57,871 nucleotides of DNA. It comes from Lachnospiraceae bacterium (lineage in GTDB: Bacteria > Bacillota > Clostridia > Lachnospirales > Lachnospiraceae). The position numbers were made by a program, and so were the translations under genes. Of the stretch, positions 5,587 to 57,385 are shown one piece after another. Position 1 is the stretch's first letter, and every line of letters starts with the position of its first letter. Below the pieces are notes generated by a model. That model was not told the origin of the DNA and searched no databases. It saw only the letters and a list, made by a program, of their open reading frames with translations. Location: NCBI GenBank assembly GCA_017938485.1, contig JAGBBM010000027.1:1-57871 (forward strand), given 5' to 3'.

Positions 5587-6663
5587 CTACAAACGTTCCT
5601 TTGCCATCTCTATTAATGTCTCAACCAACTCTTCTATACTGTAGCCCTTTGCCTTCCAAAGCATAGGATACATACTGATGGATGTAAATCCTGGCAATGT
5701 GTTAATCTCGTTAAATACCACGCTGTTGGTATCTTTTTCAAGGAAGAAATCTACTCTTGAAAGTCCAAAACCATCCAACGCATTAAATATCTTAATTGCA
5801 TTTTCTCTAATTTCTTCTTCAATTCCTTCTGGAAGATTAGGACCGATTACGGTCTTTGAATCTGCGTTATTGTACTTGGCATCAAAATCATAGAAAGCTG
5901 CTTCCTCCGCTGCAAGTATCTCTCCAATACCTGATGCCTTAGTAGTATCTCCATAGCCCATAACGGCGCACTCAAGCTCTCGTCCTACGATGGTTTCCTC
6001 CACAAGTATCTTATAGTCGTGCTCTGCTGCCTCAAGAAGTCCCTTTATAAGCATTTCTCTATTATCTGCCTTTGAAACGCCCTTTGATGAACCTGCCTTG
6101 GAAGGCTTGATAAATACTGGGTAAGAAAGCTTTTCTTCAACTCTTTTTACCACTTCATCCATATTTTCAAGCTGGCTTTTTAGCACTGGCACATATATAG
6201 CCTGTCTAATTCCCAAGGTATCAACTACAAGTTTTGTATAGAATTTATCCATTGACGCAGCTGATGCAAATACACCGCAGCCCACGTATGGAACTGCCGC
6301 CATCTCAAACAATCCCTGTATAGTTCCATCCTCTCCATACATACCGTGAAGTACAGGGAATATAACGTCTAATTTAATCTTGTCAGTAACCTTATATGTA
6401 TCACCATCCTTCTTGCTTACTATGAGTTCTCCCCTAGTATCTGGAGAAATGATGGCTTCCTTTTTGCTATTTTTCCAGCTTCCATCCTTTATTTCCTCTA
6501 TACTATCTGCCAAAAGCCAGTTTCCCTCTTTGGTAATTCCGATAAGATGCATATTGTATTTTTCTTTATCAACAGCTCCCGCAATAGCCAAAACTGATAT
6601 ACAGGACACTTCATGCTCTGATGAGCGTCCGCCAAATATTACTGCAAGGTTTTTCTTAGACAT
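5587..6663 (-). CDS. ddl: D-alanine--D-alanine ligase
   Basis: 358 aa ATP-grasp enzyme that joins two D-Ala for the peptidoglycan stem. It has the N-terminal signature VIFGGRSSEHEVSC, the LHGMYGEDGTIQG loop, the ATP-grasp HVFIKP-type segment (SYPVFIKPSKAGSSKGV) and the C-terminal metal/substrate region SRVDFFLEKD..FNEINTLPGFTSISMYP. YDFDAKY keeps the Tyr found in D-Ala-D-Ala ligases, so a vancomycin-type D-Lac ligase is unlikely. First gene of the operon, directly behind the promoter at 6714-6743. Confidence 0.95.
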   Translation of the reverse strand: MSKKNLAVIFGGRSSEHEVSCISVLAIAGAVDKEKYNMHLIGITKEGNWLLADSIEEIKDGSWKNSKKEAIISPDTRGELIVSKKDGDTYKVTDKIKLDVIFPVLHGMYGEDGTIQGLFEMAAVPYVGCGVFASAASMDKFYTKLVVDTLGIRQAIYVPVLKSQLENMDEVVKRVEEKLSYPVFIKPSKAGSSKGVSKADNREMLIKGLLEAAEHDYKILVEETIVGRELECAVMGYGDTTKASGIGEILAAEEAAFYDFDAKYNNADSKTVIGPNLPEGIEEEIRENAIKIFNALDGFGLSRVDFFLEKDTNSVVFNEINTLPGFTSISMYPMLWKAKGYSIEELVETLIEMAKERL

Positions 6664-6760: not shown

Positions 6761-7092
6761 CCTATGAATGTCATCAAGATAAGACCGCCATTTGAGGGAT
6801 TTAATATAATAAGGCTTAAAGACTAGTGGTATATTCTTCGCAACTCTACGGGTTCAAGTGTATCTAGAGGCTTAAGCTTTCGATTTTTGATTACGCGCCA
6901 CTTCCATAAACTCACATGTCTTGGGATTCCCCCAAGACATGCTCAGACAGTATGTCCGTGGCGCGATTTATCGAAAGCTTTTAAGCCTAAGATACACTAA
7001 GAACCCTAATTGTCTTCAGAATATACCACTAGTCTTTAAGCCTTATTATATTAAATCCCCCAGATGGCTGGCTCCTTGATGACATTTATAGA
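6761..7092. repeat. Large palindromic element, copy 1
   Basis: A ~330-bp near-continuous inverted repeat fills the spoIIR-ddl gap. The outer arms include a 37-bp perfect pair (6801-6837 with the complement at 7018-7054) and extend to ATGTCATCAAG / CTTGATGACAT. Pairing is broken by defined internal loops: TTCGCAACTCTACG (6837-6850) facing CTAATTGTCTTC (7006-7017), then TTTGATTA facing ATTT, then TTCCATAAACTC (6902-6913) facing CTCAGACAGTATGTCC (6942-6957). The tip is a perfect CATGTCTTGGG hairpin. There is no ORF inside. Its right edge overlaps the spoIIR stop. The same loop sequences recur at 47134-47587. Confidence 0.9.
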
Positions 7093-7811
7093 CCCAGCCA
7101 CTCTAGGAATTTGAATTTGATTTTAACTTCATCCTCTTTAACGTCCCTTTTTATGAAGAGCTTTTCGTAGTCTTCCTCACTTAGTACCTCCCTTAAGGTT
7201 TCCTCGTCTTCCTGACTAATCACAGCTCCTGTATCAAGGGGATAGCACATCATAGGATACAGTAGACACCAGAAGTTTTCCCCTTGGGCTGCTCCTATGT
7301 CGACTCTAAGGGCTTCATAATATCCAGCTGGAAATACCATCTCCCCATATTGTCTTATGGGAAAATAGTCATTTGATATATATACATTTACATCGTAGGC
7401 ATAACCTAAATTACTTATGGTTCGTTGGGCAACCTCTTTAATATGAGGAAGTTCTCCTTCCAGATAATTTATAACTTCCTCTCTGGTCATATCACTTTGG
7501 AGGATGTCTCCATACTCATATAGTATAGCGTCTCGCACCGAGTATTTTATAGATAAATCCTCATCACTGTTGCTGTTTGCTTTAACGTGAAATCTAAGGA
7601 CTACATCCTGCAAATCATCGCAATATTCACCATAGGTAGAATCATTTTCATTTATTTCAATTACCTCTTTTGCCTGATTATTTGCAATGGTATAGGAGTC
7701 ATTTCTTTTTTCCGCAAGCTCCTTTAACCTAATTGCATAACTAAAACATATCCCAACGGACACGCCTAAAAATATCCCGATAACGGATCCTCTAACAATC
7801 TTTTTAAACAT
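7086..7811 (-). CDS. spoIIR: Stage II sporulation protein R
   Basis: 241 aa. SpoIIR is the forespore-made signal that triggers SpoIIGA to process pro-sigma-E in the mother cell. Family landmarks are VVLRFHVKANSNSDEDLSIKYSVRDAIL (about 70-97), then NVYISNDYFPIRQYGEMVFPAGYYEALRV and a GENFWCLLYPMMC block. An N-terminal hydrophobic segment (residues 9-27) serves as signal/anchor for export from the forespore. It lies 27 bp downstream of the gerB-gerC fusion on the same strand, so it may be read with the germination genes. Its stop codon is inside the palindromic element. Confidence 0.92.
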   Translation of the reverse strand: MFKKIVRGSVIGIFLGVSVGICFSYAIRLKELAEKRNDSYTIANNQAKEVIEINENDSTYGEYCDDLQDVVLRFHVKANSNSDEDLSIKYSVRDAILYEYGDILQSDMTREEVINYLEGELPHIKEVAQRTISNLGYAYDVNVYISNDYFPIRQYGEMVFPAGYYEALRVDIGAAQGENFWCLLYPMMCYPLDTGAVISQEDEETLREVLSEEDYEKLFIKRDVKEDEVKIKFKFLEWLGL

Positions 7812-14908: not shown

Positions 14909-17014
14909 CTAATACAATTCAAATACTATCTCATATGTGCAGGATGATTCATCTACATACTGATCTATTTCATACTTATATGTTCCTGCAGGCATATTAT
15001 CATCAAAATTCATATAAAAATTACCATCCAAGTCTGTATATTCCGACTGAGGAAATTCTTCCCAACTCACCTCAACATAATAACCATCAACTAGTTGATA
15101 TAAATTGTGACCATGAAATGAATTACTTTTCTCATCACTTGTTAATTCTCTATTAAAAGAAAATTTTCCATATATAGCTTTTCCATGACTCGCCTCTATC
15201 CACCATCCAATAGCGGTCTGCTCATCGTCAACTATACATAGCTCACAAGTATCAAGCTCCATGCCAATACCATTTTCTGCGACAAGTTCTGTACTTATAA
15301 TTGTACCTATACTATCATCATTCCCTATTTCGACACTCGTGCTTGCCTCTTTTATTTGATGTATTTCAAACTCTATTTCATAGTGGAAAGAATTATTACC
15401 AATATATTGATAAAGCTCTAATACATATATTCCCTCTGGTAAATTATCTGAAAAATCTAAAACAAAATTATCATAATCAGAATATATAGAAGTAGGATAT
15501 GTATTCCAATCCAATTCATTATATGAACCATCAACTATTTCATATAGTGTTCCACCATGTGACCAATCATTAATCTCTGCATCAGTCAGTTCTCTTGTAT
15601 ACGCAAATGTTCCTTTAAGGCATCTACCACTATCTATCCCTACATATCCTAATGTAGCAAACTCTTCATCGGTCAATTCAACTAGTTCACAGGTAATAAG
15701 ATTTATACCTATTCCATTTTCATCAGACAGATTATGGTTTAAGATATCTCCAAAATCATCAGTCTCATATATAACTTCTTCTATAGCAGATTCATCAACT
15801 TCCTCTGTGTTTTGCTCTGTTTTATTTTCTTCTGTGGTATCCACAACTTTCTCTGTAGTATTTTCTGTAGTGACTTGTGTTGTATCAAACTTTTCATCAT
15901 CATCCTTGTTACTTATCAAAATCACAACAAAAACTACAGCTAAAATTAGCACGCCTAACAAAAGCGGTATTATAAACTTTTTCTTACCAATTTTCTGTGA
16001 TTTAGATTCTGCTACAGGCAATTCAATATTTTCCTCTACCTTAACTGTAGAATCTACTTTTAAAATAGGTTCGGTTGAATTCTTTTTTTTCTCAGACTTA
16101 CACAACATATCATTGCGCATATCCGCAATACAAGAATACCTTTCCGTATACTTTACTGCCATAGCCTTCATAATAACATCATTAATATATTCCGGCATGT
16201 TACCTCGTAAATCTCTAGGTTCTTTCATTGTATCCTCAACAACTCGACTGGTAGCCTCTTCTGGATTAACACCAGTAACCATCTTGTACATTGTAGCGCC
16301 AAGAGCATAAATGTCTGTCCATGGACCAATATCACTTTTTTTAGAATATTGTTCAATAGGAGCATAACCATATTTCAAAACAACCGAAACCGTTTTATTC
16401 TCACCGTGCATATCTTGTTTCGCTGCGCCAAAATCGATTAACTTCACTTTAGAATCATTGCAAATAAAAATATTGTCAGGACTAATATCTCTATGAATAA
16501 GACCTGCATTATGGATAGACTCTAATGCCTCCATTACAGAAAATGTAACCTGTACCATCATTTCATCATCTATCTGCTTTTTCGATTCCAAATAATCTTT
16601 CAGTGTACAACCTTCAAGATATTCCATAACCATATAAGCTGTATTATTTTCTTCAAAAAAATCATATACGCTTACAATGCTACTACTCTTATTAAATTTG
16701 GCTAAGTCTTGCGCTTCTTTTAAAAATCGTATTTTACCATGGGAAAATTCTACTCTTTGAGTCTCTGTAAATAAGCTAATATTTACATCGTCAACTATCC
16801 TATTGACAACTCCTACTGGGTAATATTCTTTAATTGCCACCTCAGCTGCAAGAACATTATCCTTTGCTTTATATGTAACACCAAAACCACCAACACCTAT
16901 AACCTCAACTATTTTATATCTTTCTTTTAAAACAGTTCCTTCTGGCAGGTATACAGACTTATCTTCTGTAAATTTGTTGGTATTAAAATCATTTAGCACC
17001 GTTGTTTTATCCAT
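14909..17014 (-). CDS. Transmembrane Ser/Thr kinase with duplicated outer domain
   Basis: 701 aa. Residues ~33-305 form a Hanks-type kinase: Gly loop GVGGFGVTYKA, VAIK Lys62, HRDISPDN (174-181), DFG (195-197) and a YAPIEQY activation segment. One membrane helix (about 346-368, KKKFIIPLLLGVLILAVVF) is followed by a Thr/Glu-rich linker. Outside are two homologous ~130-residue domains (about 423-560 and 570-701), each with ENGIG, a TCEL(V/C) strand, a WxxxxYPxSxYxDxD core and an LPEGxYxxExxQY end. I do not recognise this beta-rich repeat. Unlike the two kinases upstream it lacks the N-terminal zinc ribbon. Last gene of the T7SS operon. All catalytic residues are present, so it is not an EssB-type pseudokinase. 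Confidence 0.9.
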   Translation of the reverse strand: MDKTTVLNDFNTNKFTEDKSVYLPEGTVLKERYKIVEVIGVGGFGVTYKAKDNVLAAEVAIKEYYPVGVVNRIVDDVNISLFTETQRVEFSHGKIRFLKEAQDLAKFNKSSSIVSVYDFFEENNTAYMVMEYLEGCTLKDYLESKKQIDDEMMVQVTFSVMEALESIHNAGLIHRDISPDNIFICNDSKVKLIDFGAAKQDMHGENKTVSVVLKYGYAPIEQYSKKSDIGPWTDIYALGATMYKMVTGVNPEEATSRVVEDTMKEPRDLRGNMPEYINDVIMKAMAVKYTERYSCIADMRNDMLCKSEKKKNSTEPILKVDSTVKVEENIELPVAESKSQKIGKKKFIIPLLLGVLILAVVFVVILISNKDDDEKFDTTQVTTENTTEKVVDTTEENKTEQNTEEVDESAIEEVIYETDDFGDILNHNLSDENGIGINLITCELVELTDEEFATLGYVGIDSGRCLKGTFAYTRELTDAEINDWSHGGTLYEIVDGSYNELDWNTYPTSIYSDYDNFVLDFSDNLPEGIYVLELYQYIGNNSFHYEIEFEIHQIKEASTSVEIGNDDSIGTIISTELVAENGIGMELDTCELCIVDDEQTAIGWWIEASHGKAIYGKFSFNRELTSDEKSNSFHGHNLYQLVDGYYVEVSWEEFPQSEYTDLDGNFYMNFDDNMPAGTYKYEIDQYVDESSCTYEIVFELY

Positions 17015-17031
17015 ATGTTTCTCCTCTAATG

Positions 17032-20000
17032 TTAATAAACATATACTTCTTTAGTTTCTACATCCAACACATCACTCGCTACGCTTGGTGTATCGCTCCA
17101 ATCTGACCAGCTTCCATATACATTTCTCTTATAATGATATGTAGTTATTAGGGATCGAGAAGCGTATCGGTATACTGTTCTTGTCTCTACCTGCCTAGTG
17201 TCACTTTGAGTATAGGCAGTTGTTCCCCAGCCAGACCAATCTTTCCATCTGCTATAGTAGTATGTATATATCGGACTTCTTGTCTGGTATGTGTATGTAT
17301 AGGTGGTAGTACTTCCATTAGAGAAATACACATAAAAATTATACTTACATGCTGGAGCTCCTGAGCCTTGTCCACCATATGGTTGTTTTCCGCCAATATC
17401 AGCTAAGGAAAACTTTGGCAACGGAGATGTTGTTGTACATGTATGATATCCCAAATTTGTTTTTATAGTTCCACCAGATTTAACAGAATCAATACCATAG
17501 CTACCATCTTTATACTGATTACAGTAATGGAAGTAATTGTATGTTGTCTTTGAAGTAGTATTAGTAATTCTTAATGTATTACTTTCTGTTGGTTTAGTCG
17601 TAGTAGTCTGATTAGACCCCCAAGCTGTATAAGAAGTTACTGCCGAACCTGTTTGCGTCCATCCACTCATAGAACTACTACTACTTGACGTAGTTTCTTT
17701 ATCTCTGTATCTATACTCTTTCCTACTCTCTACCTTCACACTATCACTAGATGCAACCGAACTTGTACTCCAGCCACTCCATGAACCATAATCACTCCAA
17801 CTTGTGGATGTATTATACAACGTCCAACCTGCTAGCGTAGAAGAAGAGCTAGTGGTAGTTTCCTCAGATATACTTCTATAACGATACTGTGTTTTCGTCT
17901 CATTATTACATACACCAAGAATTACACAACTTCCTTTTGCCACTTCCGTACCAGAAGAAATATTTTGTGACAATACTGTTCCAGTTGTAGAATTCTCATT
18001 ATGACTATAAGAAACCGAGCCAATTAACCCTTGTGAACTAAGTGCAGACAAAGCATCCGCCTCAGACATACCTGTAAGATTAGGCATAGTAACCATCTTA
18101 ACCTCTTCCACTGGTTGATATACTAATTCTCCATCTACAGCGTCATCTCCTCCAGAAGAATTATTTCCTGAAGGCTGTTCCTGTTGCACAGTCTGATTTA
18201 CCTGAACAGTCTGTTCATATATTTCCTGAGTTTCTTGCGTAACAAATGTATTAGTCTGAATATTTTCAGCTTCAATTACAGCGTCTTCATTACCATTACT
18301 TACATAAATTATAACTGTAGAATTTTTATCAACAAAAGTATTAGCTGCTACAGACTGTGAAATAACAAAGTCTTTCATAACCACATCACTATCCTGATAT
18401 TCAACCTGAACCTTAAGACCTGCTTCCTCCAAGCTTGTCTGAGCTTCTGTCATACTCATATATTGTACATCTGGAACAAGCACGCTTTCTGCACCAAGAC
18501 TAACTATAACCTCAACCACATCTCCCTGCTTAACAGTTGAATCTGGTTGAGGATTCTGAGATATAATAGCCCCCTTAGGTACTGTAGAACTATATTCACT
18601 ATCCACTCTGAAAATATATAATGCGTAATCCTTTACAACACCTTTTGCCTCTTCAAACTGAACCCCTACAAGATTTGGAACAATAGTATCAACTGATGTA
18701 TCATAGTTCATACCCTTAGAAACCTCCAATTCCATACTGGTTCCTGCATCAACCAAAGTTCCTGATTCTATACTTTGAGAAACTACTGCGCTAGGTTTAA
18801 CACTACTCTCAACATAAGTACATGTGCAGAGCATATCTATAGATTCTATAAGAGGAACCGCATCTGTTTCCATAAAACCTACTACATCTGGCACAATATT
18901 TTGTCTCTGGCCAGCACTCATAAGTACAAGTAAGGTTGTATTGTTTTCAACTATACTTCCACCATATAATTGCTGTCCCAAAACTAAATCAGCTTCAACA
19001 CTATCTGAATACTCTTTTCCATATACCTGTAGAACGATATTATTGGAATTACAAGCCATTAGAGCATCGTCATTTGACATATTTATAACATTGGGCACTC
19101 TTGTATAACCCTCTGGCAAATAATTGGCGCCTGCTTTTTTCGTATTAAAACTAATAACCCCTGTAACCAACAAAACAACAAATGTTACTATGGCTGCACA
19201 AACTGTCCCTGTGGCAATTTTTGCCCATAGCGGAAATTTTCCCAAATCGGTTTTTACAGTCTTAATCTTTACTCTCTTAACTTCTTCTGCTTCCAAATCA
19301 GTAAGAAATTCTTTGACTGTCTTGGTTCTTCCCTCAGCCTTAACATTTAAAGCGTTCATAATGCTATTTTCAATATTCTTACCGATTTTGACCCCCAACT
19401 TAGAAGGAGTTTTTAAATCATCATCTACGTTACGCTCCATAGCATCTTCAGGAGTTACACCAGTAATCATCTTATAAAATGTGGCTGCAACTGCATAGAC
19501 ATCGGTCCACGTTCCCTGTTCTCCCTTAGCTCTATACTGTTCTTCTGGGGAATAACCAGGTTTAAGTACAACAGATAAACTCTTACTATGCTTGGTTGTT
19601 GCAAATTTTGACGCACCAAAATCAATTATCTTAAGTGTTCCGTCATTAGTAATAAATATATTATCAGGTGCTATATCTCTATGAATTATTCCCTCTTGGT
19701 GCACTCTATCAAGGGCTTTAAGGATTGGTTTAATCATACCTATAGCTGTGTCCACATCTATCTTACCCTTTTCTTCTATCATAGATTTAAGAGTTCTACC
19801 TTCCAAATACTCCATAACAATATATGCGGTATTATTTTCCTCAAAACACTCTTGAATCTTCACAATTCCTTCTACATCAGAAAGCTTGGAGAGGCATTTT
19901 GACTCAGAAAGAAACTTACTTTTTCCTGACTCAAACTGCTCATACTTACTTCCAGAATATGGAGATACGCGGTCTTCACCTAAAGTTCTAGAACAAAACT

Positions 20001-20241
20001 CGTTAGGAAAATACTCCTTTATAGCAACACGTTGTTCAAGTGCTGCGTCCCAGCCAATATAAGTAACACCAAAACCACCATAACCTATAACCTCGCCTAC
20101 GATATACCTTTTGCCAATTATGGTAGTTGGCTGCAAATGATATGCCTCGTTTTTTGTATTTCCAGCTATATAACCACAATGAGGACATATTTCGTACTCC
20201 TCATCAAATTCGCCCATACAATTCATACATCTGATAGACAT
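17032..20241 (-). CDS. PASTA Ser/Thr kinase with zinc ribbon and Trp/Tyr-rich C-terminal repeats
   Basis: 1069 aa. Residues 5-24 are a zinc ribbon (CMNC..CPHC). The kinase spans ~45-310 (GYGGFGVTY, Lys75, HRDIAPDN 187-194, DFG 206-208). One membrane helix lies at ~341-365. Five PASTA-like repeats follow (~380-660, and a further one after a Gln/Asn/Gly linker, ~725-790). The last ~270 residues are Ser/Thr/Tyr/Trp-rich with repeated units of the form W(S/K)xWSxW...SD...VE(T/S)R..YRYR. PASTA domains usually bind peptidoglycan. The Trp-rich region recalls WSxWS-containing adhesive repeats, but I cannot assign it. Ribosome site GGAGAG. Confidence 0.9.
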   Translation of the reverse strand: MSIRCMNCMGEFDEEYEICPHCGYIAGNTKNEAYHLQPTTIIGKRYIVGEVIGYGGFGVTYIGWDAALEQRVAIKEYFPNEFCSRTLGEDRVSPYSGSKYEQFESGKSKFLSESKCLSKLSDVEGIVKIQECFEENNTAYIVMEYLEGRTLKSMIEEKGKIDVDTAIGMIKPILKALDRVHQEGIIHRDIAPDNIFITNDGTLKIIDFGASKFATTKHSKSLSVVLKPGYSPEEQYRAKGEQGTWTDVYAVAATFYKMITGVTPEDAMERNVDDDLKTPSKLGVKIGKNIENSIMNALNVKAEGRTKTVKEFLTDLEAEEVKRVKIKTVKTDLGKFPLWAKIATGTVCAAIVTFVVLLVTGVISFNTKKAGANYLPEGYTRVPNVINMSNDDALMACNSNNIVLQVYGKEYSDSVEADLVLGQQLYGGSIVENNTTLLVLMSAGQRQNIVPDVVGFMETDAVPLIESIDMLCTCTYVESSVKPSAVVSQSIESGTLVDAGTSMELEVSKGMNYDTSVDTIVPNLVGVQFEEAKGVVKDYALYIFRVDSEYSSTVPKGAIISQNPQPDSTVKQGDVVEVIVSLGAESVLVPDVQYMSMTEAQTSLEEAGLKVQVEYQDSDVVMKDFVISQSVAANTFVDKNSTVIIYVSNGNEDAVIEAENIQTNTFVTQETQEIYEQTVQVNQTVQQEQPSGNNSSGGDDAVDGELVYQPVEEVKMVTMPNLTGMSEADALSALSSQGLIGSVSYSHNENSTTGTVLSQNISSGTEVAKGSCVILGVCNNETKTQYRYRSISEETTTSSSSTLAGWTLYNTSTSWSDYGSWSGWSTSSVASSDSVKVESRKEYRYRDKETTSSSSSSMSGWTQTGSAVTSYTAWGSNQTTTTKPTESNTLRITNTTSKTTYNYFHYCNQYKDGSYGIDSVKSGGTIKTNLGYHTCTTTSPLPKFSLADIGGKQPYGGQGSGAPACKYNFYVYFSNGSTTTYTYTYQTRSPIYTYYYSRWKDWSGWGTTAYTQSDTRQVETRTVYRYASRSLITTYHYKRNVYGSWSDWSDTPSVASDVLDVETKEVYVY

Positions 20242-20253
20242 GATATACTCTCC

Positions 20254-22176
20254 TTACTCACATATTTTCTCTTGGTAAATCTTATCGCATACTTCGTCAA
20301 GCTCAAATAAGCTGTCGTCATCAACGTAAATGTTGTCCATATAGGACTCAAGTTCTTTAAGTTCCCAGTTAATTTTTATATACTCTACAAAACAGTTCTT
20401 ATTTAAAGGTGTTCCATTGGCATCCTGATTATAATAGACATCCTGCCCCATATCTCCTAAAAGATATGATATAACTCGCATAGCTGCTGCCTGGTTTTTG
20501 TCTTCACACTGAGCACTAACACTCCACACATCTACAAAACATGCTTGAATATCTTCATCACCATATACCTCATCAATAAGAATTTCATACTTTCCGCCAA
20601 AGGTAGATTGAACTAGATTGTAATCTTTTGTTCCAGATACCACTACGCCGGCTTCTCCTGCCAAAAACAAGTCCATATCATTTTCATTTGATATACTATC
20701 TGTAATCTCGCTACCGTAAGCTATAGCCATATCTAAACCTGTAGGCATCTGATTTTTGTCAGGAAAATAATCCTTATAGTCCGACATAAGATATAAATCT
20801 TTTTTATCCACTGCATTGAATACGTCATCTAATTTTATTGTATTATCTAAAATTTCATCACTGGCATAGGTACTTACAAATAAATCCGGCAAATTCCCTT
20901 TTTCAGACGCCAGGTCAAGCTTATCATAATAGCTGCCTTCCGCTATAACTTCAACCTCAACTTCTATATGAGGGTAATCCGTCTGAAACTGCGCTATTCT
21001 ACTATAAAAATTTTGTTCAGCAGTAGACATATCTTCTTCTGAAGCAGGAATCCATACAAGGATTTTTGTGGCCTCAAGTTCTGCGTCAAACTTAATCTTG
21101 TTATATATTCCAACTGTAATCAGAACTGCCATTAACAACACCGCTGTAACAATGCCCGCAACTACCAATCTAGTTCGTTTACGTCTCTTCAAATCCTGTT
21201 CAACAGTCCTTACTTTTCGCTGATGCAAAATGGCTTCCTCAAACTGAGTAACATTTTGGAATCTAAGCTCAGGTGTAAGAGCCATAGCCACCATAAGCGC
21301 TGTGTCAATATAATCTGGCACTTCAGGATTTAACTCCTTTGGAGATTTAACCTCATCATTAACCACCCTATCTACAGATTCATCTGGCACAACACCAGTT
21401 ATAGCATAATACATAGTAGCGCCAAGAGCATATATGTCTGTCCAGGGGCCCTGTATACTCTTATTTCTGTACTGTTCTGGTGGTGCATACCCAGGTTTTA
21501 AAACTACTGACATAGTCTTTTCTTCCTCGTCAGAAATTCTTGCTGCACCAAAGTCTATAAGCTTTATCTTTTTATTTAGACATATAAATATATTGTCAGG
21601 ACTGATATCTCTATGGAGAATCTTCTCTTTGTGCATAGTTTTTAAAGCCGCAATAACAGACAACAATACATCTATAGCAGTATCTGTATCTATACGGCCT
21701 TCATTAAGAAGTATGAAATCCTTCAGAGATATACCATCCAAAAATTCCATAATTATGTAACCTGTATTATTCTCCTGAAACAAGTCATATACATTTACTA
21801 TGTTGGGATGCTCTCCAAACATAGCAGTACGCTTACCTTCTTCAAGGAATCTAATAAGCCCTTTGTCAAACTCTTCTCTATTTTTTTCAGAATAAAGATT
21901 TACAGATATACCATCTAGCCCTCTGTTTACCAAACTAGAAGGAAAATACTCCTTTATGGCAACAACCTTATCCATCTTGGTATCCCAAGCTTTATAGGTT
22001 ATACCAAAACCTCCAAAACCGACAACAACACCGACTTTATATCTGTCGTGTAGTGTTATGCCTGATTTCATCTGATATATCTCATCTGGAGCAGTATCTC
22101 TTATATATCCACAATGTGGACATAACTCATATTCATCATCATATTGCTCCATGCAATTCATACATCGAATCTTCAT
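20254..22176 (-). CDS. Ser/Thr kinase with zinc ribbon and solute-binding-protein-like outer domain
   Basis: 640 aa from ATG 22176, which has GGAGG upstream; a TTG 12 bp earlier is in frame but overlaps the ribosome site. Residues 5-22 are a zinc ribbon (CMNC..CPHC). The kinase runs to ~315 (GFGGFGITY, Lys75, HRDISPDN 188-195, DFG 208-210). One membrane helix lies at ~336-358. The ~280-residue outer part resembles family 1 extracellular solute-binding proteins: KILVWIPASEED, FQTDYPHIEVEVEVIAEGSYYDKLDLASEKGNLPDLFVSTYA, a GEAGVVVSG block and a C-terminal CFVDVWSVSAQC..AAAMRVISYLLGD. It is shorter than free binding proteins (~400 aa). It is probably a kinase that senses a ligand outside the cell. 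Confidence 0.88.
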   Translation of the reverse strand: MKIRCMNCMEQYDDEYELCPHCGYIRDTAPDEIYQMKSGITLHDRYKVGVVVGFGGFGITYKAWDTKMDKVVAIKEYFPSSLVNRGLDGISVNLYSEKNREEFDKGLIRFLEEGKRTAMFGEHPNIVNVYDLFQENNTGYIIMEFLDGISLKDFILLNEGRIDTDTAIDVLLSVIAALKTMHKEKILHRDISPDNIFICLNKKIKLIDFGAARISDEEEKTMSVVLKPGYAPPEQYRNKSIQGPWTDIYALGATMYYAITGVVPDESVDRVVNDEVKSPKELNPEVPDYIDTALMVAMALTPELRFQNVTQFEEAILHQRKVRTVEQDLKRRKRTRLVVAGIVTAVLLMAVLITVGIYNKIKFDAELEATKILVWIPASEEDMSTAEQNFYSRIAQFQTDYPHIEVEVEVIAEGSYYDKLDLASEKGNLPDLFVSTYASDEILDNTIKLDDVFNAVDKKDLYLMSDYKDYFPDKNQMPTGLDMAIAYGSEITDSISNENDMDLFLAGEAGVVVSGTKDYNLVQSTFGGKYEILIDEVYGDEDIQACFVDVWSVSAQCEDKNQAAAMRVISYLLGDMGQDVYYNQDANGTPLNKNCFVEYIKINWELKELESYMDNIYVDDDSLFELDEVCDKIYQEKICE

Positions 22177-22201
22177 AGGTTCCTCCAAAAATAGTCAATA
22201 T

Positions 22202-22223
22202 GGGCACACCAAAGGGTGTGCCC
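22202..22223 (-). terminator. Perfect hairpin between TPR gene and kinase gene
   Basis: GGGCACACC/GGTGTGCCC stem with a 4-nt loop region, but no T-tract follows. It may be a partial terminator or an mRNA stability element that sets the level of the downstream kinases. Confidence 0.5.
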
Positions 22224-22229
22224 TACATA

Positions 22230-23420
22230 TTATTTTGCACCTGCAATTTTATCTCTCACATTTGTTAGTTCAGATGCCTCTCCTAACACATCAATTACAA
22301 AATCCATATCTCGTAAAGCTTCTTCCTTCATACCTATGCTATGATACAAAATCGCTCTATGAAGGAATGCCTGTATATTTTCAGGCAAATAAATTGTTTT
22401 ATCTTGCATAAAATAAAGAGCGGTTTCTGTTCTCTCTCTGAAAACTTCCTCCGATTCGCATACCTTAGATGCCAAACACATATAGTACAACGCATTATAA
22501 TATCTTATATCTCTTACACTGAGTTCTGTAATTCTTTCTGCATACTCGATAGTAAGTTCTGGATTTTTTTCTACAAATGCATACAACATCATAGCATGTA
22601 ATGCAGCTATATCTTCCTCTACGTCAAGCATTTTTTCAAATATCATCTTCGCCTCTTCATGCTTCCCCATAAGCATAAGAAACTCTGCAAGATATTTCTT
22701 TGTCTCCATTTCATCCTCACCTAATATCTCAAGATTAGACATTATAAAATCATACCCCACTTGATATTCTTTTTTCTTTTGGTAAAGATACGCTATGTCA
22801 TACAAATATTCTCTACTATTCTCAAATAAAGACTTAATCGAAAACAAATACTCTTCTGCCTCAAAAACTCTATTACTTGATACTAAGATAATAAATTTCT
22901 TATGATATCCTACATAATTTTTAGGTATCATAGTAATAAGCTTGTCACACTTTTCCAGTGATTTTTCATAATCACCTGTAGAAATATACAAAGCTAACAG
23001 TTTATCAACAGGTGTAATATCATCACTATCCAATTCTTCAGCCATATTGTACATCTCAATTGCATTTTTAAAATCAAACTCTGCCATTGACATTAAACCC
23101 AAATTACAGTATAAATTCGCCGACTTACATCCATTGGAAATAGCAAGATTGTAATACTCCTTGGCTTTAGACATATCATCTCTTTTTATGCATACATTAC
23201 CCAAATCAAAGTATACTGTTGCAAGATTATAATTTTCTTCTAGTAACAAATTCAAATTACTTTCTGCTTCCGATAATAAATCAAGTCTTATTTGCACCTC
23301 GGCCAACATAAGCACATCTTCAAAATCTAAGCTATCCAACTCTGCCAACTGATAAAAACATTTTTCGTTTTCACCTTGAAGAAAATATTCTCTAGCTATT
23401 TTTTGTTCTTCTGTCATCAT
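22230..23420 (-). CDS. TPR-repeat protein of the T7SS locus
   Basis: 396 aa built of helical pairs with TPR spacing, clearest at LATVYFDLGNVCIKRDDMSKAKEYYNLAI and ANLYCNLGLMSMAEFDFKNAIEMYNMAEEL (about 68-130). At least eight repeats can be traced to the C-terminus. No membrane helix or signal peptide, so it is a cytosolic scaffold or chaperone candidate. It lies between the secreted-protein genes and the three kinases. An ATG at 23417 is equally possible as start. Confidence 0.85.
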   Translation of the reverse strand: MMTEEQKIAREYFLQGENEKCFYQLAELDSLDFEDVLMLAEVQIRLDLLSEAESNLNLLLEENYNLATVYFDLGNVCIKRDDMSKAKEYYNLAISNGCKSANLYCNLGLMSMAEFDFKNAIEMYNMAEELDSDDITPVDKLLALYISTGDYEKSLEKCDKLITMIPKNYVGYHKKFIILVSSNRVFEAEEYLFSIKSLFENSREYLYDIAYLYQKKKEYQVGYDFIMSNLEILGEDEMETKKYLAEFLMLMGKHEEAKMIFEKMLDVEEDIAALHAMMLYAFVEKNPELTIEYAERITELSVRDIRYYNALYYMCLASKVCESEEVFRERTETALYFMQDKTIYLPENIQAFLHRAILYHSIGMKEEALRDMDFVIDVLGEASELTNVRDKIAGAK

Positions 23421-23434
23421 AATGTCACCTCGAA

Positions 23435-24571
23435 TTAATTAATCCTATATGCCGGTCGCTGTTGAAATATATTATTTCCGTTAAACACATCTTTATTAGG
23501 AAACTGTTTAGGTTCTACACAATAATTTTTAGGAGTTGAATCTTCAATAGTAATATTAATTCTTTCCGCATTATCATATGCAGTCTCATAAGCATCTTTA
23601 TAATCATATATTACAGCACCTATTTTTGTCTTTTTTGCAACTTCCTCATTAAGATCTAAGTCACCATTAACCGCTTTTCCATAAACTCCAGTTGCCGTTT
23701 TAATATTTTTTAAAGGCTTAATATATTGATCCGTATCTAATTTCTTGTAAATTTTATTTAATTTTTTGGTATCCTTTGACGACTTAAGATTAAATAAATC
23801 TTTTGTGCTATCAATAGCACCCTCAGCATCTACTATCGTGTCGAGACCTCCTGTTATAACTGCAAAATTTTTAGCAAAACCTTTCTCATCCTCTAAAACA
23901 TCAGTTATGCCATTATTATCGCCTATCTCTACAGCACCTTCAACAAAACTATCTCGTATAGACTTATCAACCAAACCAGTGTGATATCCTATCTCTGAAC
24001 CAAATATAGCAGAAACTGCGAACAAATCGCTTCCTGTTGCAAAAACTCCGTTAATTATTTCATAACCAGATAAGAAAAATCCCGCAACACCATACTTACT
24101 AAAATTCTCTAGGATACCACCTGTTATTTCATAACCTAAAGAAGCAACATCTCCAAGTAATTCAACTACATACTTACCTAAAGGCCATTTTTCATAAAAT
24201 TCCTTTACTATATTAGAGCCATACTCAAGACTTGCTTTAATCTTCTTTTTCAAATCATTAACTTTACGACCAAGTTGCTTATACCATGGTCCCACTAACT
24301 TTTTATAAGCACCATTATCAGCATCCTTGATTATTTTATCGATACTTTTTAATGTATCTCTGATAAGCTCAACATCTTGCAAGTATTTTTCTATCCTCTT
24401 ACATTCAGTACAAAGTTCGTTATAAATAGTATTATGAGTAGCCGTGCCATTACTAACCTTGTGATAAAACGCTGTTTTTTGTAGTTTCATCTTAGCCAAA
24501 GCAATTTCAAGTTCATCGCAAGCTTGGTTTAAATCTTTAATTGAATTCATGACTTGTGTATTATATTTCAC
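23435..24571 (-). CDS. Candidate T7SS substrate, LXG-like helical N-terminus
   Basis: 378 aa from GTG 24571, which has AGAGGTGA 5 nt upstream; an earlier GTG at 24580 lies inside that site. Residues 1-~110 are long amphipathic helices (KDLNQACDELEIALAKMKL, then IEKYLQDVELIRDTLKSIDKII) like the targeting half of LXG-type T7SS proteins. The middle has Gly/Ala-rich helices (VVELLGDVASLGYEITGGILENFSKYGVAGFFLSGYEIINGVF) that might insert in membranes. The C-terminus is polar and unrecognised. No toxin motif and no immunity gene are visible. It directly follows the five WXG100-size genes. Confidence 0.65.
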   Translation of the reverse strand: MKYNTQVMNSIKDLNQACDELEIALAKMKLQKTAFYHKVSNGTATHNTIYNELCTECKRIEKYLQDVELIRDTLKSIDKIIKDADNGAYKKLVGPWYKQLGRKVNDLKKKIKASLEYGSNIVKEFYEKWPLGKYVVELLGDVASLGYEITGGILENFSKYGVAGFFLSGYEIINGVFATGSDLFAVSAIFGSEIGYHTGLVDKSIRDSFVEGAVEIGDNNGITDVLEDEKGFAKNFAVITGGLDTIVDAEGAIDSTKDLFNLKSSKDTKKLNKIYKKLDTDQYIKPLKNIKTATGVYGKAVNGDLDLNEEVAKKTKIGAVIYDYKDAYETAYDNAERINITIEDSTPKNYCVEPKQFPNKDVFNGNNIFQQRPAYRIN

Positions 24572-24593
24572 AAAAATCACCTCTAAACTTTAA

Positions 24594-24914
24594 TTAAAAA
24601 ATCCCACTTGTATCCAATGCTCCCGTAGTAGTGACATTTTCGCTTTCCATACTTTCATAATTTGCGGCAATTTGATTCAGCTTATCTACGTGTTCCATTA
24701 ATCTAACCAAAGAGTTATCAACATTTTTATGTACTGATTCATATTTTTCTGCATAGTCCGTACTAGATTGACTTGACCATACACCCTCGAGACTTGTTAT
24801 ATAAGTCTTCATCTTACCCATTAAGTCTCTCATGATTTCTACTTTTCCCTCTATAGCGGTTGCATTTGCTCTAACCTCTTCTGAGTCAACTAACATCTTT
24901 AATCCTTCTGCCAT
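24594..24914 (-). CDS. WXG100-family protein (WSS variant)
   Basis: 106 aa, two-helix hairpin with the turn at GVWSSQSSTDYAEKY (about 45-59). Trp is kept but the WXG Gly is Ser. Family members are secreted as helical-bundle dimers by EssC-type systems. The C-terminus ends in a short Ser/Thr-rich tail (VTTTGALDTSGIF) instead of a clear YxxxD/E export motif, though NYESME lies just before it. Confidence 0.8.
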   Translation of the reverse strand: MAEGLKMLVDSEEVRANATAIEGKVEIMRDLMGKMKTYITSLEGVWSSQSSTDYAEKYESVHKNVDNSLVRLMEHVDKLNQIAANYESMESENVTTTGALDTSGIF

Positions 24915-24932
24915 AATTCATTCCTCCATTTA

Positions 24933-25223
24933 TTATCTATTTGCTATATTTACAGCTGCTTGCTCGCCTTCAATGTATCTGTTTGCAATCTTAATTATAG
25001 TCTGCTGGTATGATTCCATAACCGCTGCTAACTGCTCAAACTTCTTTACATCAGCCGCAAAACTCTGTACAAAAGTGTCATTTGCTGGACCTTCCCACAT
25101 TGTAGACATATCAGCTACTAATTTTGATGTCTCCCCCACAGTTTGAGCCCATGCACTCATTGTTTCTCCTAAACTCTTTGCAACTTCTCCCATTTCTTCT
25201 GGTGATACTTTTGTTTTTGCCAT
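24933..25223 (-). CDS. esxA: WXG100-family protein (true WEG motif)
   Basis: 96 aa with the textbook layout: helix, MWEGPANDTFVQSF turn (about 42-56), second helix, and a C-terminal YIEGEQ resembling the YxxxE export signal. It is the most canonical WXG100 protein here and the best candidate for the EsxA role. The symbol rests on family membership only. Confidence 0.85.
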   Translation of the reverse strand: MAKTKVSPEEMGEVAKSLGETMSAWAQTVGETSKLVADMSTMWEGPANDTFVQSFAADVKKFEQLAAVMESYQQTIIKIANRYIEGEQAAVNIANR

Positions 25224-25236
25224 ATCTTTTTCCTCC

Positions 25237-25521
25237 TTATACTATGGATTTATTTTTTTGCTCAATTATTTGAGCTTTATTTATCTCATCACAAAGTTTC
25301 TTTCTAGTAGATAATATATCATACGATAAATCATATATTTTAGAAGATAACTTCGTTAATTGCGATGTTAATTGAGTCGCATTTTTTCCCTTCCAATAGG
25401 CGGGTACATTTTTCTTAACCCTCTCAAGTTTTACTTTAGCCATAACTACACTCTCTGCACTATTTTGCATTTGGTTAGCTATGGCTTGCATCTTATCGGT
25501 ATCTACCTTTATCTTCGCCAT
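25237..25521 (-). CDS. WXG100-family protein (WKG motif)
   Basis: 94 aa: first helix KMQAIANQMQNSAESVVMAKVKLERVKK, turn AYWKGKNATQLTSQL (about 41-55), then a second helix. The WXG triplet is kept. The C-terminus is basic and lacks an obvious YxxxD/E. Spaced 13 bp from the next gene, so co-translated with the other family members. Confidence 0.8.
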   Translation of the reverse strand: MAKIKVDTDKMQAIANQMQNSAESVVMAKVKLERVKKNVPAYWKGKNATQLTSQLTKLSSKIYDLSYDILSTRKKLCDEINKAQIIEQKNKSIV

Positions 25522-25533
25522 TCAACCCCTCCT

Positions 25534-25845
25534 CTATGTAAAAATATCATCATCGCTCAACTCATTCACATATTTTGAAACATCTTCGTCTGTGGCTTTA
25601 TAATTTGCAATCGTTCTATACAGAGCAATCATATGGTCTTCCATTATATCTACAGTAACGTCTAAATTATTATTAAATTCCTTACATTTACTTTTAAATT
25701 CTTTACTGGCCTTAGACTTCCATACACCTTCTTTTTTGCTATTAATTGTTTTTACTTCTTTACTAATTGAACCTAATGTTTTATATATCTGCACCAAAGA
25801 ATCATAAGTTGACTGTAATTCGTCTACATCATATTGCATAGTCAT
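25534..25845 (-). CDS. WXG100-like protein (WKS variant)
   Basis: 103 aa from ATG 25845, preceded by GAGGTGG at 5-nt spacing; a GTG 9 bp earlier falls in that site. Two-helix hairpin with turn GVWKSKASKEFKSKC (about 40-54), where Ser replaces the WXG Gly. The C-terminal YVNEL after KYV fits a degenerate export tail. Start lies 2 bp from the stop of the preceding gene. Confidence 0.75.
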   Translation of the reverse strand: MTMQYDVDELQSTYDSLVQIYKTLGSISKEVKTINSKKEGVWKSKASKEFKSKCKEFNNNLDVTVDIMEDHMIALYRTIANYKATDEDVSKYVNELSDDDIFT

Positions 25846-25847
25846 AG

Positions 25848-26171
25848 CTACCACCTCATCCCTGTAACCATATTGTTAATCTTATTATTAACCTTCTTTT
25901 CACATTCTTCATAGTATTTGTCAACAAGGTTTGATAAGGAATCTATAGTTTTTTCCAAACCATTTAAAACAATTCCTAAATTTTTAATATCAAGTACTAT
26001 GAACTTAACAAAATTCTCTGATGCAGTACTACTCCACTCACTCTGAAGATTTGTACCACAAACACCTAACTTTCTTATTTCAGACTCTAAATCTTTCTTT
26101 TTCCTTTTTAAACTGGAAACCATAGACTTTAATTCGTCTACATCCCAAATATAATCTGTTCCGTTTGCCAT
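25848..26171 (-). CDS. WXG100-like protein (WSS variant)
   Basis: 107 aa: helix 1 DVDELKSMVSSLKRKKKDLESEIRKLG, turn SEWSSTASENFVKFI (about 44-58), helix 2, and a KYYEECEKK segment near the C-terminus matching YxxxE/C-type export signals. Gly of WXG is replaced by Ser. It is 9 bp downstream of the YukD-like gene. Confidence 0.75.
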   Translation of the reverse strand: MANGTDYIWDVDELKSMVSSLKRKKKDLESEIRKLGVCGTNLQSEWSSTASENFVKFIVLDIKNLGIVLNGLEKTIDSLSNLVDKYYEECEKKVNNKINNMVTGMRW

Positions 26172-26180
26172 AGTACCTCC

Positions 26181-26435
26181 TTAAATCAACATAATTGTGT
26201 CACCACTTTTTATACCTGCATGCTCAAAAGTCTGATATTCATCAATAAGACCATTTTCATTTTCTGTATACAAAAACAAGTTGTTTACATCCAATATATC
26301 CTCACACTTTTCAGACCCAGAAATTGCCTCTATCATTTTCATCTTCCCATCATGGATCTTAAGTTTTTTTGATACCCAGAAATCGTATGATTTTGAGGTT
26401 GCAGGACATTTTACATCAATTAAAATCTTATCCAT
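26181..26435 (-). CDS. esaB: YukD/EsaB-like ubiquitin-fold protein
   Basis: 84 aa from ATG 26435, which has GAGGGGG upstream. Longer frames reach back into the essC 3' end and are not supported. It starts MDKILIDVKCPATSKSYDFWVSKKLKIHDG and ends GIKSGDTIMLI, the strand-helix-strand layout and terminal strand of YukD/EsaB. Family members are small cytosolic parts of Firmicutes T7SS. Between essC and the WXG100 genes, the expected place. Confidence 0.8.
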   Translation of the reverse strand: MDKILIDVKCPATSKSYDFWVSKKLKIHDGKMKMIEAISGSEKCEDILDVNNLFLYTENENGLIDEYQTFEHAGIKSGDTIMLI

Positions 26436-26448
26436 ATCTTCCCCCTCT

Positions 26449-31032: not shown

Positions 31033-31040
31033 ATACTACA

Positions 31041-31952
31041 TTACCCCTTTTTATTTCCACAAATTCTACAAGTAGATGCCATCATAGCATTTAACGCATT
31101 ACAACTATCACAGCGCCATGGTGAAGATATTAATACACTAGTCAAATCCTGTTCTTCTCCCTCATAATTAGCGATATAATTTGTATCTGGCTGATACATA
31201 ACATCATCTATACTTTCTATCACTATATTATTTGAAGACGTACTAGTTTGAATATTCCAACTGTTCTCTGTAACTGTATCTGTATCTGTTCTTTGAACTT
31301 CGGATGTATCAACATTCTGCCACCAAGAAAATCCATCTTTACAAAGTGGAATGAGCATATATGTTGAAGCACCTATTTCAAGCACATCCATATAATTTAC
31401 ATAAACATTTTCAGAAACCGAATAACCATTTATCTTTACTTTTCCATCAGAATGTTCACTATCCATAAAAAAACGGCCCGTTTCAACTTGATAACATATT
31501 ACTCCGTGACTAACACTACAAAGTCGCGAATCATCTATAGCAACTACATTCCCAGTACCACTTCCAATAGTATTACTTGTAGCAAACAGCTCATAACTAT
31601 GACCATATTTTTCTCCTGAAATTCCAACCAACCATCCTACAACTGGTCCATACTCATACGTTTTTTTTATGCTTATATACGATTTTTCTACATTTTTTTG
31701 TTGAAATGTAACTGACGTTTCATCCGATTCAGATGTTTTTATTGATTCATATTTCTTTTCTGACGATTTAGAATCTGAAACATTTGTGTGATATATAGAT
31801 TTCGTCAAATTACCTGTTTCTCTATTTTCTGTTATCTTCTTTTTCTCTAATGTGTTTACTATTTTTTTATCAATATTATTTTTACAATGCGGACACTCCG
31901 AATACTTGTCTCCATCAAAAAAATGCCCACTCTTACATTTCTTTAAATCCAT
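31041..31952 (-). CDS. FHA-domain protein flanked by zinc-binding motifs
   Basis: 303 aa. The N-terminus has a CKSGHFFDGDKYSECPHC motif (6-23). A charged linker runs to ~100. Residues ~105-200 are FHA-like (GPVVGWLVGISGEKYGHSYELFATSNTIGSG..RLCSVSHGVICYQ..VKINGYSV), with the Ser-x-x-His signature. The C-terminus is a RanBP2-type zinc finger (WRCDSCNALNAMMASTCRICG, 280-300). FHA domains bind phosphothreonine, so it should read the product of the three kinases encoded in the same operon. It lies 8 bp upstream of essC. Confidence 0.85.
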   Translation of the reverse strand: MDLKKCKSGHFFDGDKYSECPHCKNNIDKKIVNTLEKKKITENRETGNLTKSIYHTNVSDSKSSEKKYESIKTSESDETSVTFQQKNVEKSYISIKKTYEYGPVVGWLVGISGEKYGHSYELFATSNTIGSGTGNVVAIDDSRLCSVSHGVICYQVETGRFFMDSEHSDGKVKINGYSVSENVYVNYMDVLEIGASTYMLIPLCKDGFSWWQNVDTSEVQRTDTDTVTENSWNIQTSTSSNNIVIESIDDVMYQPDTNYIANYEGEEQDLTSVLISSPWRCDSCNALNAMMASTCRICGNKKG

Positions 31953-31965
31953 ATGTACATCCCCT

Positions 31966-32718: not shown

Positions 32719-32802
32719 ACTAATCTCCAATCTACCCATCTCTAAAACAATTTTTGAAACCAATAATTGTATTAAAATTCACAAAAAAATACACACACTT
32801 CA

Positions 32803-44758: not shown

Positions 44759-44879
44759 ACCAAAATTTTGATGATATAGTATTAATTTAAAAAATCATAT
44801 TAAGAATCTGATTTTAAAAAACCCACTTGACATTTTAGTTTTTCAGTTCTACAATCAATTTTAGTTAAATAATTTATCG

Positions 44880-45110
44880 GCTATGAAGAGACGAGTACCA
44901 TAAAAACGGACTACAGAGAGAATTCCACTACCCGCTGAGAGAGAATTCAGAACACGCTTATGGGAAGACTACCTCGGAGCTGCTTATACAAAATATAAGC
45001 CGTTGATTACGTTACAATCTTAAAGAAGTGTCATTTGTTTTTTCAAATGGAACTAGGGTGGAACCGCGATTTATCGTCCCTAGCGTTTTTATACGCTAGG
45101 GACTTTCTTT
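44880..45110 (+). promoter_or_regulatory. Threonine T-box leader of thrS
   Basis: The gap between fliC and thrS holds a full T-box riboswitch. The candidate specifier codon ACC (Thr) is at 44897-44899 in the stem I loop region (GACGAGTACCATAA). The T-box core AACTAGGGTGGAACCGCG spans 45051-45068. The terminator GTCCCTAGCG (45076-45085) pairs with CGCTAGGGAC (45094-45103) and is followed by TTTCTTT. Uncharged tRNA-Thr should favour the antiterminator and thrS expression. Confidence 0.92.
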
Positions 45111-47089: not shown

Positions 47090-47099
47090 AAAACAAACT

Positions 47100-47137
47100 C
47101 CCCACCCGAAAGAAACATTTCCGGGTGGGGATATTTT
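47100..47137 (+). terminator. thrS terminator
   Basis: CCCCACCCG (47100-47108) pairs with CGGGTGGGG (47122-47130), followed by ATATTTTT. Its T-tract is also the left edge of palindromic element copy 2. Confidence 0.9.
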
Positions 47138-47587
47138 TGTATTATAGCATAGAACTTGGGGGTATATTCTGAAGACAATTAGGGTTCTTAGTGTATCTTA
47201 GGCTTATAAGCTTTCGATAAATCGTGCCGCGGACATTTGTCTGAGTATGTCATAGAGAATATAACTATGGATTTTTTCGCAACTCTACGCTTGTGCAAAT
47301 ATCTAAGATTTTAAACTTGCGATGTTTGATTAGTACTGCTTTCGCGAAACTCGTCCCACTTAGTGGGACTCAAACATCGCTTTCGCAGTACATTCATCGC
47401 AAGTTATAAAATCTTGATATTTGGTACAAGCTAATTGTCTTCAAAAATCCATAGTTATATTCTCTATGACATACGAGTTTATGGGAGCGGCACGTAATAA
47501 AATATCGAAAGCTTAAGCCTTAGATACACTTGAACCCGTAGAGTTGCGAAGAATATACCCCCAAGTTCTATGCTATAATACAAAAAA
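47134..47587. repeat. Large palindromic element, copy 2 (inverted, with nested copy)
   Basis: Outer arms of about 36 bp, almost perfect (47134-47170 with 47551-47587), frame the same internal-loop pair as copy 1 but inverted: GAAGACAATTAG (47171-47182) facing CGTAGAGTTGCGAA (47537-47550). The next helix and loops also match copy 1 read backward (GGACATTTGTCTGAG 47231-47245; GAGTTTATGGGAG 47475-47487). A third element fills the tip. The outer arms share only GGTATATTCT with copy 1. No gene inside. Flanked by two terminators, and together with them fills the gap between thrS and the next gene. Confidence 0.9.
47247..47472. repeat. Nested palindromic element, copy 3
   Basis: Arms 47247-47275 and 47443-47472 are perfect complements and differ from the arms of copies 1 and 2. 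Inside are TTCGCAACTCTACG (47276-47289) facing CTAATTGTCTTC (47431-47442), identical to copy 1, then TTTGATTA facing ATT, and TTTCGCGAAACTC (47340-47352) facing CTCAAACATCGCTTTC (47369-47384). Same orientation as copy 1. Confidence 0.88.
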
Positions 47588-47588
47588 T

Positions 47589-47628
47589 TCCCCTTCCACA
47601 AAATGTTACGCAGTGAAAGGGGAGTTTT
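47589..47628 (-). terminator. Terminator of the membrane-protein cluster
   Basis: CTCCCCTTTCAC..GTGGAAGGGGAATTTTTTG on the minus strand, directly after the stop at 47629. Confidence 0.85.
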
Positions 47629-56480: not shown

Positions 56481-56497
56481 CTTGTTTATAATGCTTA

Positions 56498-57260: not shown

Positions 57261-57385
57261 TACGGATTTTTATGTATCCGTGTCAAAAACTATATATTGT
57301 ACCTTATATAAAATTCTTCCCATATTTAGATATGGCGAAAGATGTCAGTTAGTGTTATAATAATGATTACGTATGGAGGTTTAAA

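Follow-up and report, generated by a model that had tools for sequence, protein, structure and literature searches.

Do the giant hairpins found between genes of a Lachnospiraceae bacterium encode a structured RNA, or are they DNA that moves and is recognized in folded form? We addressed this question from a stretch of 57,871 nucleotides (the window) of a gut or rumen bacterium, whose genome (G000) is a 2.43 Mb draft of 137 contigs, 87.6% complete. A preliminary description of the window listed three hairpin elements, at 6761-7092, 47134-47587, and 47247-47472. The hairpins are real: they are palindromes with folding z-scores of -23.3, -28.6, and -24.4, and 0 of 100 shuffled sequences were equally stable. 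They make up two loci and not three, as the sequence at 47247-47472 is a second, inverted module inside the tip of the 47134-47587 element. By their appearance, the hairpins are small mobile DNA of a kind not yet described, not an RNA gene.

Architecture of the two loci

Copy 1 is a single-module palindrome (6762..7091, + strand) between a D-ala-D-ala-ligase-like gene (5587-6663, - strand) and a spoIIR-like gene (7086-7811, - strand), into whose stop its right arm reaches. One end of its conserved core, the 5' strand of loop A, is an exact TTCGCAACTCTACG at 6837..6850 (+), and the opposite core end, the 3' strand of loop A, is an exact CTAATTGTCTTC at 7006..7017 (+). Between them lie loop B, with TTTGATTA at 6886..6893 (+) and its 3' partner ATTT at 6966-6969, and loop C, with AAACTC at 6908..6913 (+) on the 5' strand and CTCAGACA at 6942..6949 (+) on the 3' strand.

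Copy 2 is a composite palindrome (47114..47607, outer module on the - strand) between thrS (+ strand, ending at 47089) and a convergent gene with no Pfam match (47629-48267, - strand). Its outer loop A consists of an exact TTCGCAACTCTACG at 47537..47550 (-, 5' strand) and an exact CTAATTGTCTTC at 47171..47182 (-, 3' strand). Further inward, a middle helix joins a left arm at 47245..47276 to a right arm at 47443..47474, the two being 100% complementary. The inner module runs from loop A to loop A at 47276..47442 on the + strand, opposite in orientation to the outer one, and carries an exact TTCGCAACTCTACG / CTAATTGTCTTC pair (47276-47289 / 47431-47442), loop B TTTGATTA (47325..47332), and loop C, with AAACTC (47347..47352) on the 5' strand and CTCAAACA (47369..47376) on the 3' strand, all on the + strand. 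By eye, a terminator-like hairpin that is T-rich on both sides follows thrS (47099..47139), and a possible terminator hairpin of the convergent gene lies at 47582..47624 (- strand); the latter is absent from the output of our terminator scan, which permits only loops of 3-8.

The facing loop pair reported earlier is thus exact in all three modules, and the further conserved loops, TTTGATTA and AAACTC/CTCARACA, are present as claimed. Within the window, TTCGCAACTCTACG had three matches at up to two mismatches (0.13 expected), and CTAATTGTCTTC had four at up to one mismatch (0.5 expected), including one that lies beyond the elements. The helix example given with these loops, GGTATATTCT versus GGATTTTT, set an outer arm against a middle helix; arms do differ between copies, and past about 20 nt they are unrelated between most of them. 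The tip of copy 1, the sole single-module locus in G000, retains bases of the middle helix found in locus L001, and copy 1 therefore looks like a deletion derivative.

The window holds several other features. Several TTTCACGTGAAAC sites, presumably parS-like, are clustered at 56490-57280, close to a stretch resembling DnaA boxes (TATCCACA, at about 56436), which suggests a replication origin. The region 14909-32763 encodes a PASTA kinase, a 1527-aa FHA and FtsK/SpoIIIE protein, a TPR protein, and several ORFs of about 100 aa, which we take to resemble a type VII-like secretion locus. A T-box leader (Rfam RF00230) lies upstream of thrS at 44874-45084.

Copy number and distribution

The element is repeated. 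G000 holds 12 loci of this family (family 1), 11 of which are composite, with an inner module oppositely oriented in the tip of the outer one. A pattern search of the genome at up to two mismatches returned 24 matches, namely 16 exact TTCGCAACTCTACG, 3 near variants in elements, and 5 elsewhere. Since a backward control pattern at the same level (14-mer, 2 mismatches) returned 23, only exact or structure-supported matches count.

Beyond this genome, DNA searches found relatives in 8 of 37 genus genomes, and the union of DNA and covariance-model searches comprises 9 of 37, own genome included in both counts; the weak positives among the nine are G007 (DNA, E 6e-4) and G013 (model only, E 6e-4). 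The covariance-model search of the genus, which the preliminary description had put forward as a check, gave positives in 8 of 37 genomes. In a sample of 299 genomes of the family, covering 298 genera (297 besides that of G000), the positives were G000 itself and G132, from a different genus, whose 6 matches had E from 4e-11 to 0.004. All others were negative, an absence that is soft because the filters were strict and 12 of several hundred first-look candidates were scored per genome. Four G132 copies were read, three of them composite and retaining GCAACTCTACG, and the pattern CGATGTTT[GT]ATT is found in one or both modules of L140, L142, L144, and L146 of that genome. A scan of a sequence collection with one pattern recovered 19 stretches: 14 were from bins labeled Lachnospiraceae, Clostridium, or Bacteroides, several of these being identical with genus-mate loci, and the remaining five (Rhizobiaceae, Pseudoalteromonas, Paraburkholderia twice, and Seinonella) are probably chance matches. 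A phage or plasmid origin was rejected, as the copy-2 DNA had no match in phages or plasmids and viral contigs, searched with one pattern, gave 0 matches.

The earlier impression that no named family fits was borne out, as no Rfam family matches. Rfam 15 returned nothing at the elements when the whole window was searched at the gathering score, and for 47100-47620, with E up to 10, the best match had E 0.39 (13 of 440 bits). Similarly, the titles and abstract openings of open-licence PMC literature contained no description of the family.

Fixed patches and covarying helices

Outer, inner, and type-2 modules (the last from a subfamily introduced below) align as a single module. Our covariation alignment included 22 of 35 distinct modules and the two helices between and around the patches. 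Across these 22 modules there is little or no variation in loop B (CGAT.TTTGATT), loop C (AACTC / CTCA.ACA), or T.ATCG, and 12 of the 19 helix pairs change on both sides, with 99.0% of 414 pair cells paired and a single cell G-U. The loops are indeed fixed while the helices covary, as first proposed, and the covariation is almost exclusively of Watson-Crick pairs. Neither covariation value was reached in 500 shuffles, and shifting the partners abolished the signal. The number of further pair types was 14, under all shuffles (mean 18.2), a low number that is expected if wobble pairs are missing. In a distant member, L032 of G007, loop B (TTCGATTA/ATT) and loop C are kept and, by eye, the helices differ.

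The preliminary description left the choice between an RNA and a DNA hairpin open. Strong covariation, conserved internal loops, and folding z-scores of -23 to -29 are all in line with a structured non-coding RNA family. Compensatory change in RNA is commonly thought to proceed via G-U (PMC8794818), and covariation with such intermediates amounts here to 1 cell in 414, against 238 of 923 (26%) in SRP RNA of the same genus. This control used a predicted structure and 28 genus genomes of 34 matching (30 loci fetched, two left out). Likewise, two-sided changes numbered 78 and one-sided changes 1 in the cells of the 22 modules, versus 38 and 73 in the SRP RNA. Fisher tests gave p of about 1e-41 for the G-U share and about 1e-22 for the sides changed, values in which cells are not independent events; for this reason, and because the SRP RNA is less diverged, the G-U share is the sounder comparison.

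The same scarcity is seen in the helix between loops A and B, where 20 modules have 608 matches, 87 gap and 47 other mismatch columns with recurring bulges, and only 2 G-U and 2 A-C mismatches. For 8 of the 12 elements we scored the outer arms on the strand of the outer module, which gave 540 matches, 9 G-U, 19 A-C, and 32 other mismatches, and 20 gaps, with no excess of G-U. Read on the opposite strand, these become 19 G-U versus 9 A-C (p 0.09), a weak lean to G-U on the strand opposite the outer module and a further point on the side of an RNA. The near-absence of G-U relative to SRP RNA favors DNA, and the paired molecule is, from these comparisons, most likely DNA rather than RNA. An RNA family would also have to do without an Rfam match and without a promoter-like site in the 800 bp around copy 2 (0, with 2.2 in shuffles), and with composites that set two modules on opposite strands; we regard it as very unlikely.

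Locus-specific arms

From loop A to loop A, the G000 copies that we compared in pairs are 85-97% alike. The outer arms measure about 50-110 bp when the terminator-like stems beside them are counted. They mirror each other imperfectly (75-95% matched columns) and differ at nearly every site: among 12 family-1 arms, mutual identity rose above shuffles only in the first 20 nt, with the exception of L005 and L013, which are alike in their arms too. Since the core is alike between copies while the arms differ, loop A is best seen as the two ends of a conserved unit whose arms are mostly locus-specific. The arms do not appear to have been captured from elsewhere in the genome. We searched G000 with 14 arms (12 of family 1 and two of a second family described below) and obtained 28 matches with E below 1e-6, each arm matching just its own two places; the next arm matches had E 0.02 or worse, and no source was found among the 40 of 55 first-look candidates scored. 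For the inner 50-60 bp of the arms, neither the genome search nor the empty sites read offered a source.

A subfamily, type 2, behaves otherwise. Its elements (L028-L031, L036, L037, L042, L043, and L113, in G004 and G019-G021) are about 540 nt long and about 88-96% alike over their full length, with arms that are constant between copies. Their ends are mostly GGGGCTGTC / GACAGCCCC-like stems close to stop codons.

A second core family

A palindrome survey of 439 kb of G000 found five giant palindromes over the score threshold, three of which contained the family-1 module. The other two have a different core in common, with 94% identity across 269 nt, and their arms are unrelated. This family 2, with core ACGCTCTCGCTCGTCTC..., is present at L186 (44-542 and 4195-4653), L250, and L268-L279, often at convergent sites. 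At up to one mismatch, its 17-base motif had 20 matches in G000 and was found in 7 of 37 genus genomes, versus 0 for the backward control. We read 11 more family-2 loci, all of which have matched arms above a low threshold. The G000 and G006 copies appear to have locus-specific arms, and copies in G003, G004, G019, and G020 have common GGGCTGTCGCA-type ends, with L272 and L273 sharing more. Given these common ends in several species, family 2 also has a constant-arm form. A survey of 400 kb of G018 found one palindrome over the threshold. At the threshold used, long palindromes that lack a known core number none in 439 kb of G000 and one in 400 kb of G018.

Orthologous sites across species

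The elements are present or absent at orthologous sites: at L002, L003, L007, L009, L011, L012, L013, and L015, the element is missing from at least one relative. The site of L009 holds family 1 in G000, family 2 in G006, and plain terminators in G017 and G007. Similarly, the site of L026 holds family 1 in G006, family 2 in G000, a palindrome resembling family 2 in G023, and plain terminators in G014, G007, and G016. Some of the loci collected (L242 and L264, for example) were other genes or different parts of the gene and were left out of the site counts. No direct target-site duplication was seen, the relatives being too diverged for a base-exact empty site; the regions downstream of thrS in genus-mates are likewise too diverged to place an exact junction.

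The site of L005 is filled in both G000 and G006, and the arms there have changed in concert: 39 columns are unchanged and paired, and 11 changed together in both arms, the remaining columns being paired in one species only (19), in neither (1), or gapped (9). This site also bears on whether the palindromes could be inverted chimeras of assembly, a concern given that the hosts are mostly draft genomes and several are evidently metagenome bins. Chimeras would hardly keep their arms across species as at L005, have imperfect arms, or recur alike across several bins as the type-2 copies do, and we consider such an artefact barely credible.

Several sites carry mirrored flanks. At L002 and L007, an empty relative has one terminator versus two mirror-image terminators in G000, a pattern that would also fit a palindromic terminator that was duplicated directly and later homogenised. 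At L011, the left gene's end, AGGAGGACTTATGT, is mirrored after the right gene's stop in 14 of 15 positions; since G006 has a native hairpin, GGAGGACTTA TG TAAGTCCTCC, at the left gene's end of this site, splitting of a native terminator stem would also account for the mirror.

This native hairpin would also suit insertion into pre-existing long palindromes, with the arms as target and not product. Such insertion would account for arms that differ between loci and for an inner module sitting within the tip of an outer one, and the site of L013 in G007 (L246) does contain two long palindromes of other sequence, back to back. Yet at the empty sites of L002, L003, L007, L009, and L013 (the last in G017, which has a short terminator) palindromes are short or absent, and core-less long palindromes are as rare as the surveys of G000 and G018 indicate. 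We judge this reading quite unlikely.

Plain terminators themselves vary: L159, L161, and L166, from one orthologous site in three species of the genus, have wholly different stems. In L167, the G011 terminator at the same gene pair, about 100 nt of unrelated sequence are inserted in the loop, with ACAGGGCTGTG on one side and CACAGCCCTGT on the other.

Placement at convergent genes

The elements are 281-793 bp long and, judged by ORF lists only, non-coding. For placement we used a sample of 32 (12 from G000, 4 from G006, 2 from G017, 8 of type 2, and 6 from G132), leaving out other, mostly truncated loci. Of 26 elements with both neighbors called, 17 lie between convergent genes, 9 between tandem genes, and 0 between divergent genes (6 more had one neighbor called), compared with 21 convergent, 91 tandem, and 28 divergent among 140 background gaps in 439 kb of G000; the calls, made by open reading frame, are rough, L002 for example being called tandem while its G017 orthologue has a convergent neighbor. 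Among the 34 arm ends of the 17 convergent cases, 30 are no more than 30 nt away from a stop codon, and 17 pass through it.

This bias, with no divergent case, raises the possibility that the elements benefit the host, as has been suggested for other extragenic palindromes: they might be retained as insulators or bidirectional terminators that halt transcription arriving from either of two convergent genes. An inverted second module would supply one sense module per strand, and by eye A-tract/stem/T-tract structures flank the elements or are outermost in them; in L012, L035, L027, and the family-2 copies in L186, the hairpin tip is itself a terminator-like stem with an A-tract and a T-tract. 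Termination does not need sequence-specific loops, however, and at several of the same sites relatives have no more than a plain terminator in a short gap. The terminator scan, moreover, gave one stem near copy 2 (47099-47131, - strand only) and none near copy 1. A host-beneficial terminator of this kind seems unlikely to us.

Comparison with known systems

Like the attC sites of integrons, which are recognized as folded single-strand DNA by unpaired features while their stem sequence varies, these elements combine fixed unpaired patches with changing helices. The resemblance to MITEs is also considerable: both are short, non-coding, repeated, intergenic, strongly hairpin-forming, and present or absent at orthologous sites (PMC10969869). 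The preliminary description had set the elements apart from MITEs, which holds in that type-1 and G000 family-2 arms vary by site, with no constant terminal inverted repeats in type 1, and in that the conserved ends lie at an unpaired loop and not at terminal inverted repeats. The distinction is blurred by the repetition and the variable presence just mentioned, and the mark it chose for a simple MITE, identical arms, is one that type-2 copies do have.

REP/BIME palindromes with their RAYT (Y1) transposases likewise are extragenic, have fixed interruptions, and occur as units in opposite orientation (PMC2817692). REP palindromes are 20-40 bp long (PMC3733652), in contrast to the 281-793 bp of our elements, and no GTAG/CGTC head of REP was seen by eye in the element sequences read. 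We rejected a RAYT/REP identity, as the 8 carriers identified by DNA search (drafts 84-100% complete) have 0 matches to PF01797 (Y1 transposase). G013, positive by the model only (E 6e-4), has one PF01797 match.

For the matched arms, precedents come from template switching, which creates, extends, and maintains perfect stems in RNA genes (Monttinen and Loytynoja 2022, PMC8794818), and from Nematomorpha, whose mitochondrial genes contain long perfect inverted repeats, or coding palindromes (PMC6649704). In the RNA genes, mirror copying across a stem yields perfect pairs and multi-base compensatory change, which our elements resemble. The former report concerns RNA genes and the latter mitochondrial genes, whereas here matched arms are combined with a repeated element and conserved unpaired patches.

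A model for the elements

Our best explanation, to which we give about an even chance, is a DNA element that moves, or did so until recently, without being autonomous, acts as one strand in folded form, sits at terminators, and has its arms matched by template switching. The conserved unit would extend from loop A to loop A, with loop A as its non-matching ends, and loops B and C would be internal recognition patches, putatively bound by a protein in the DNA. A recombinase acting in trans may move the unit, which would insert at its presumed target, intrinsic terminators, for the most part where two genes converge. One insertion into the tip of its own hairpin would then yield the composite form.

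Our reason for proposing template switching is that the unit forms a near-perfect hairpin. Nearby DNA synthesis may switch template across its stem, copying one flank to the other side and so producing mirror arms that reach up to the stop codons. The same process could keep the arms matched as they change. As homogenisation alone would erase the loops, selection on the loops must be assumed. Some observations sit uneasily with this explanation. Our search for a mobilising enzyme, which covered the Y1 family, found none in the 8 carriers identified by DNA search. The inner 50-60 bp of the arms are explained neither by insertion nor by copying of a known flank, the bias to convergent sites could reflect tolerance rather than targeting, and some copies have arms in common (L005 with L013, the type-2 elements, and the ends of some family-2 copies in other species).

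More tentatively, and with some doubt on our part, the elements may represent a new class of mobile DNA, one whose folded strand would be recognized via unpaired patches and which would mirror a convergent terminator, making its own matched arms by inverted target duplication and concerted evolution. Such a class would include at least two unrelated core families in one genus, swapping at two orthologous sites.

If our explanation is right, covariation restricted to Watson-Crick pairs, together with fixed unpaired patches, would be a sequence signature by which folded-DNA elements could be told apart from RNA genes, and strong covariation by itself would be no proof of RNA. The loci would further provide a natural series, from empty sites to those with family 1 or family 2, for following how long palindromes form and become matched in bacteria.
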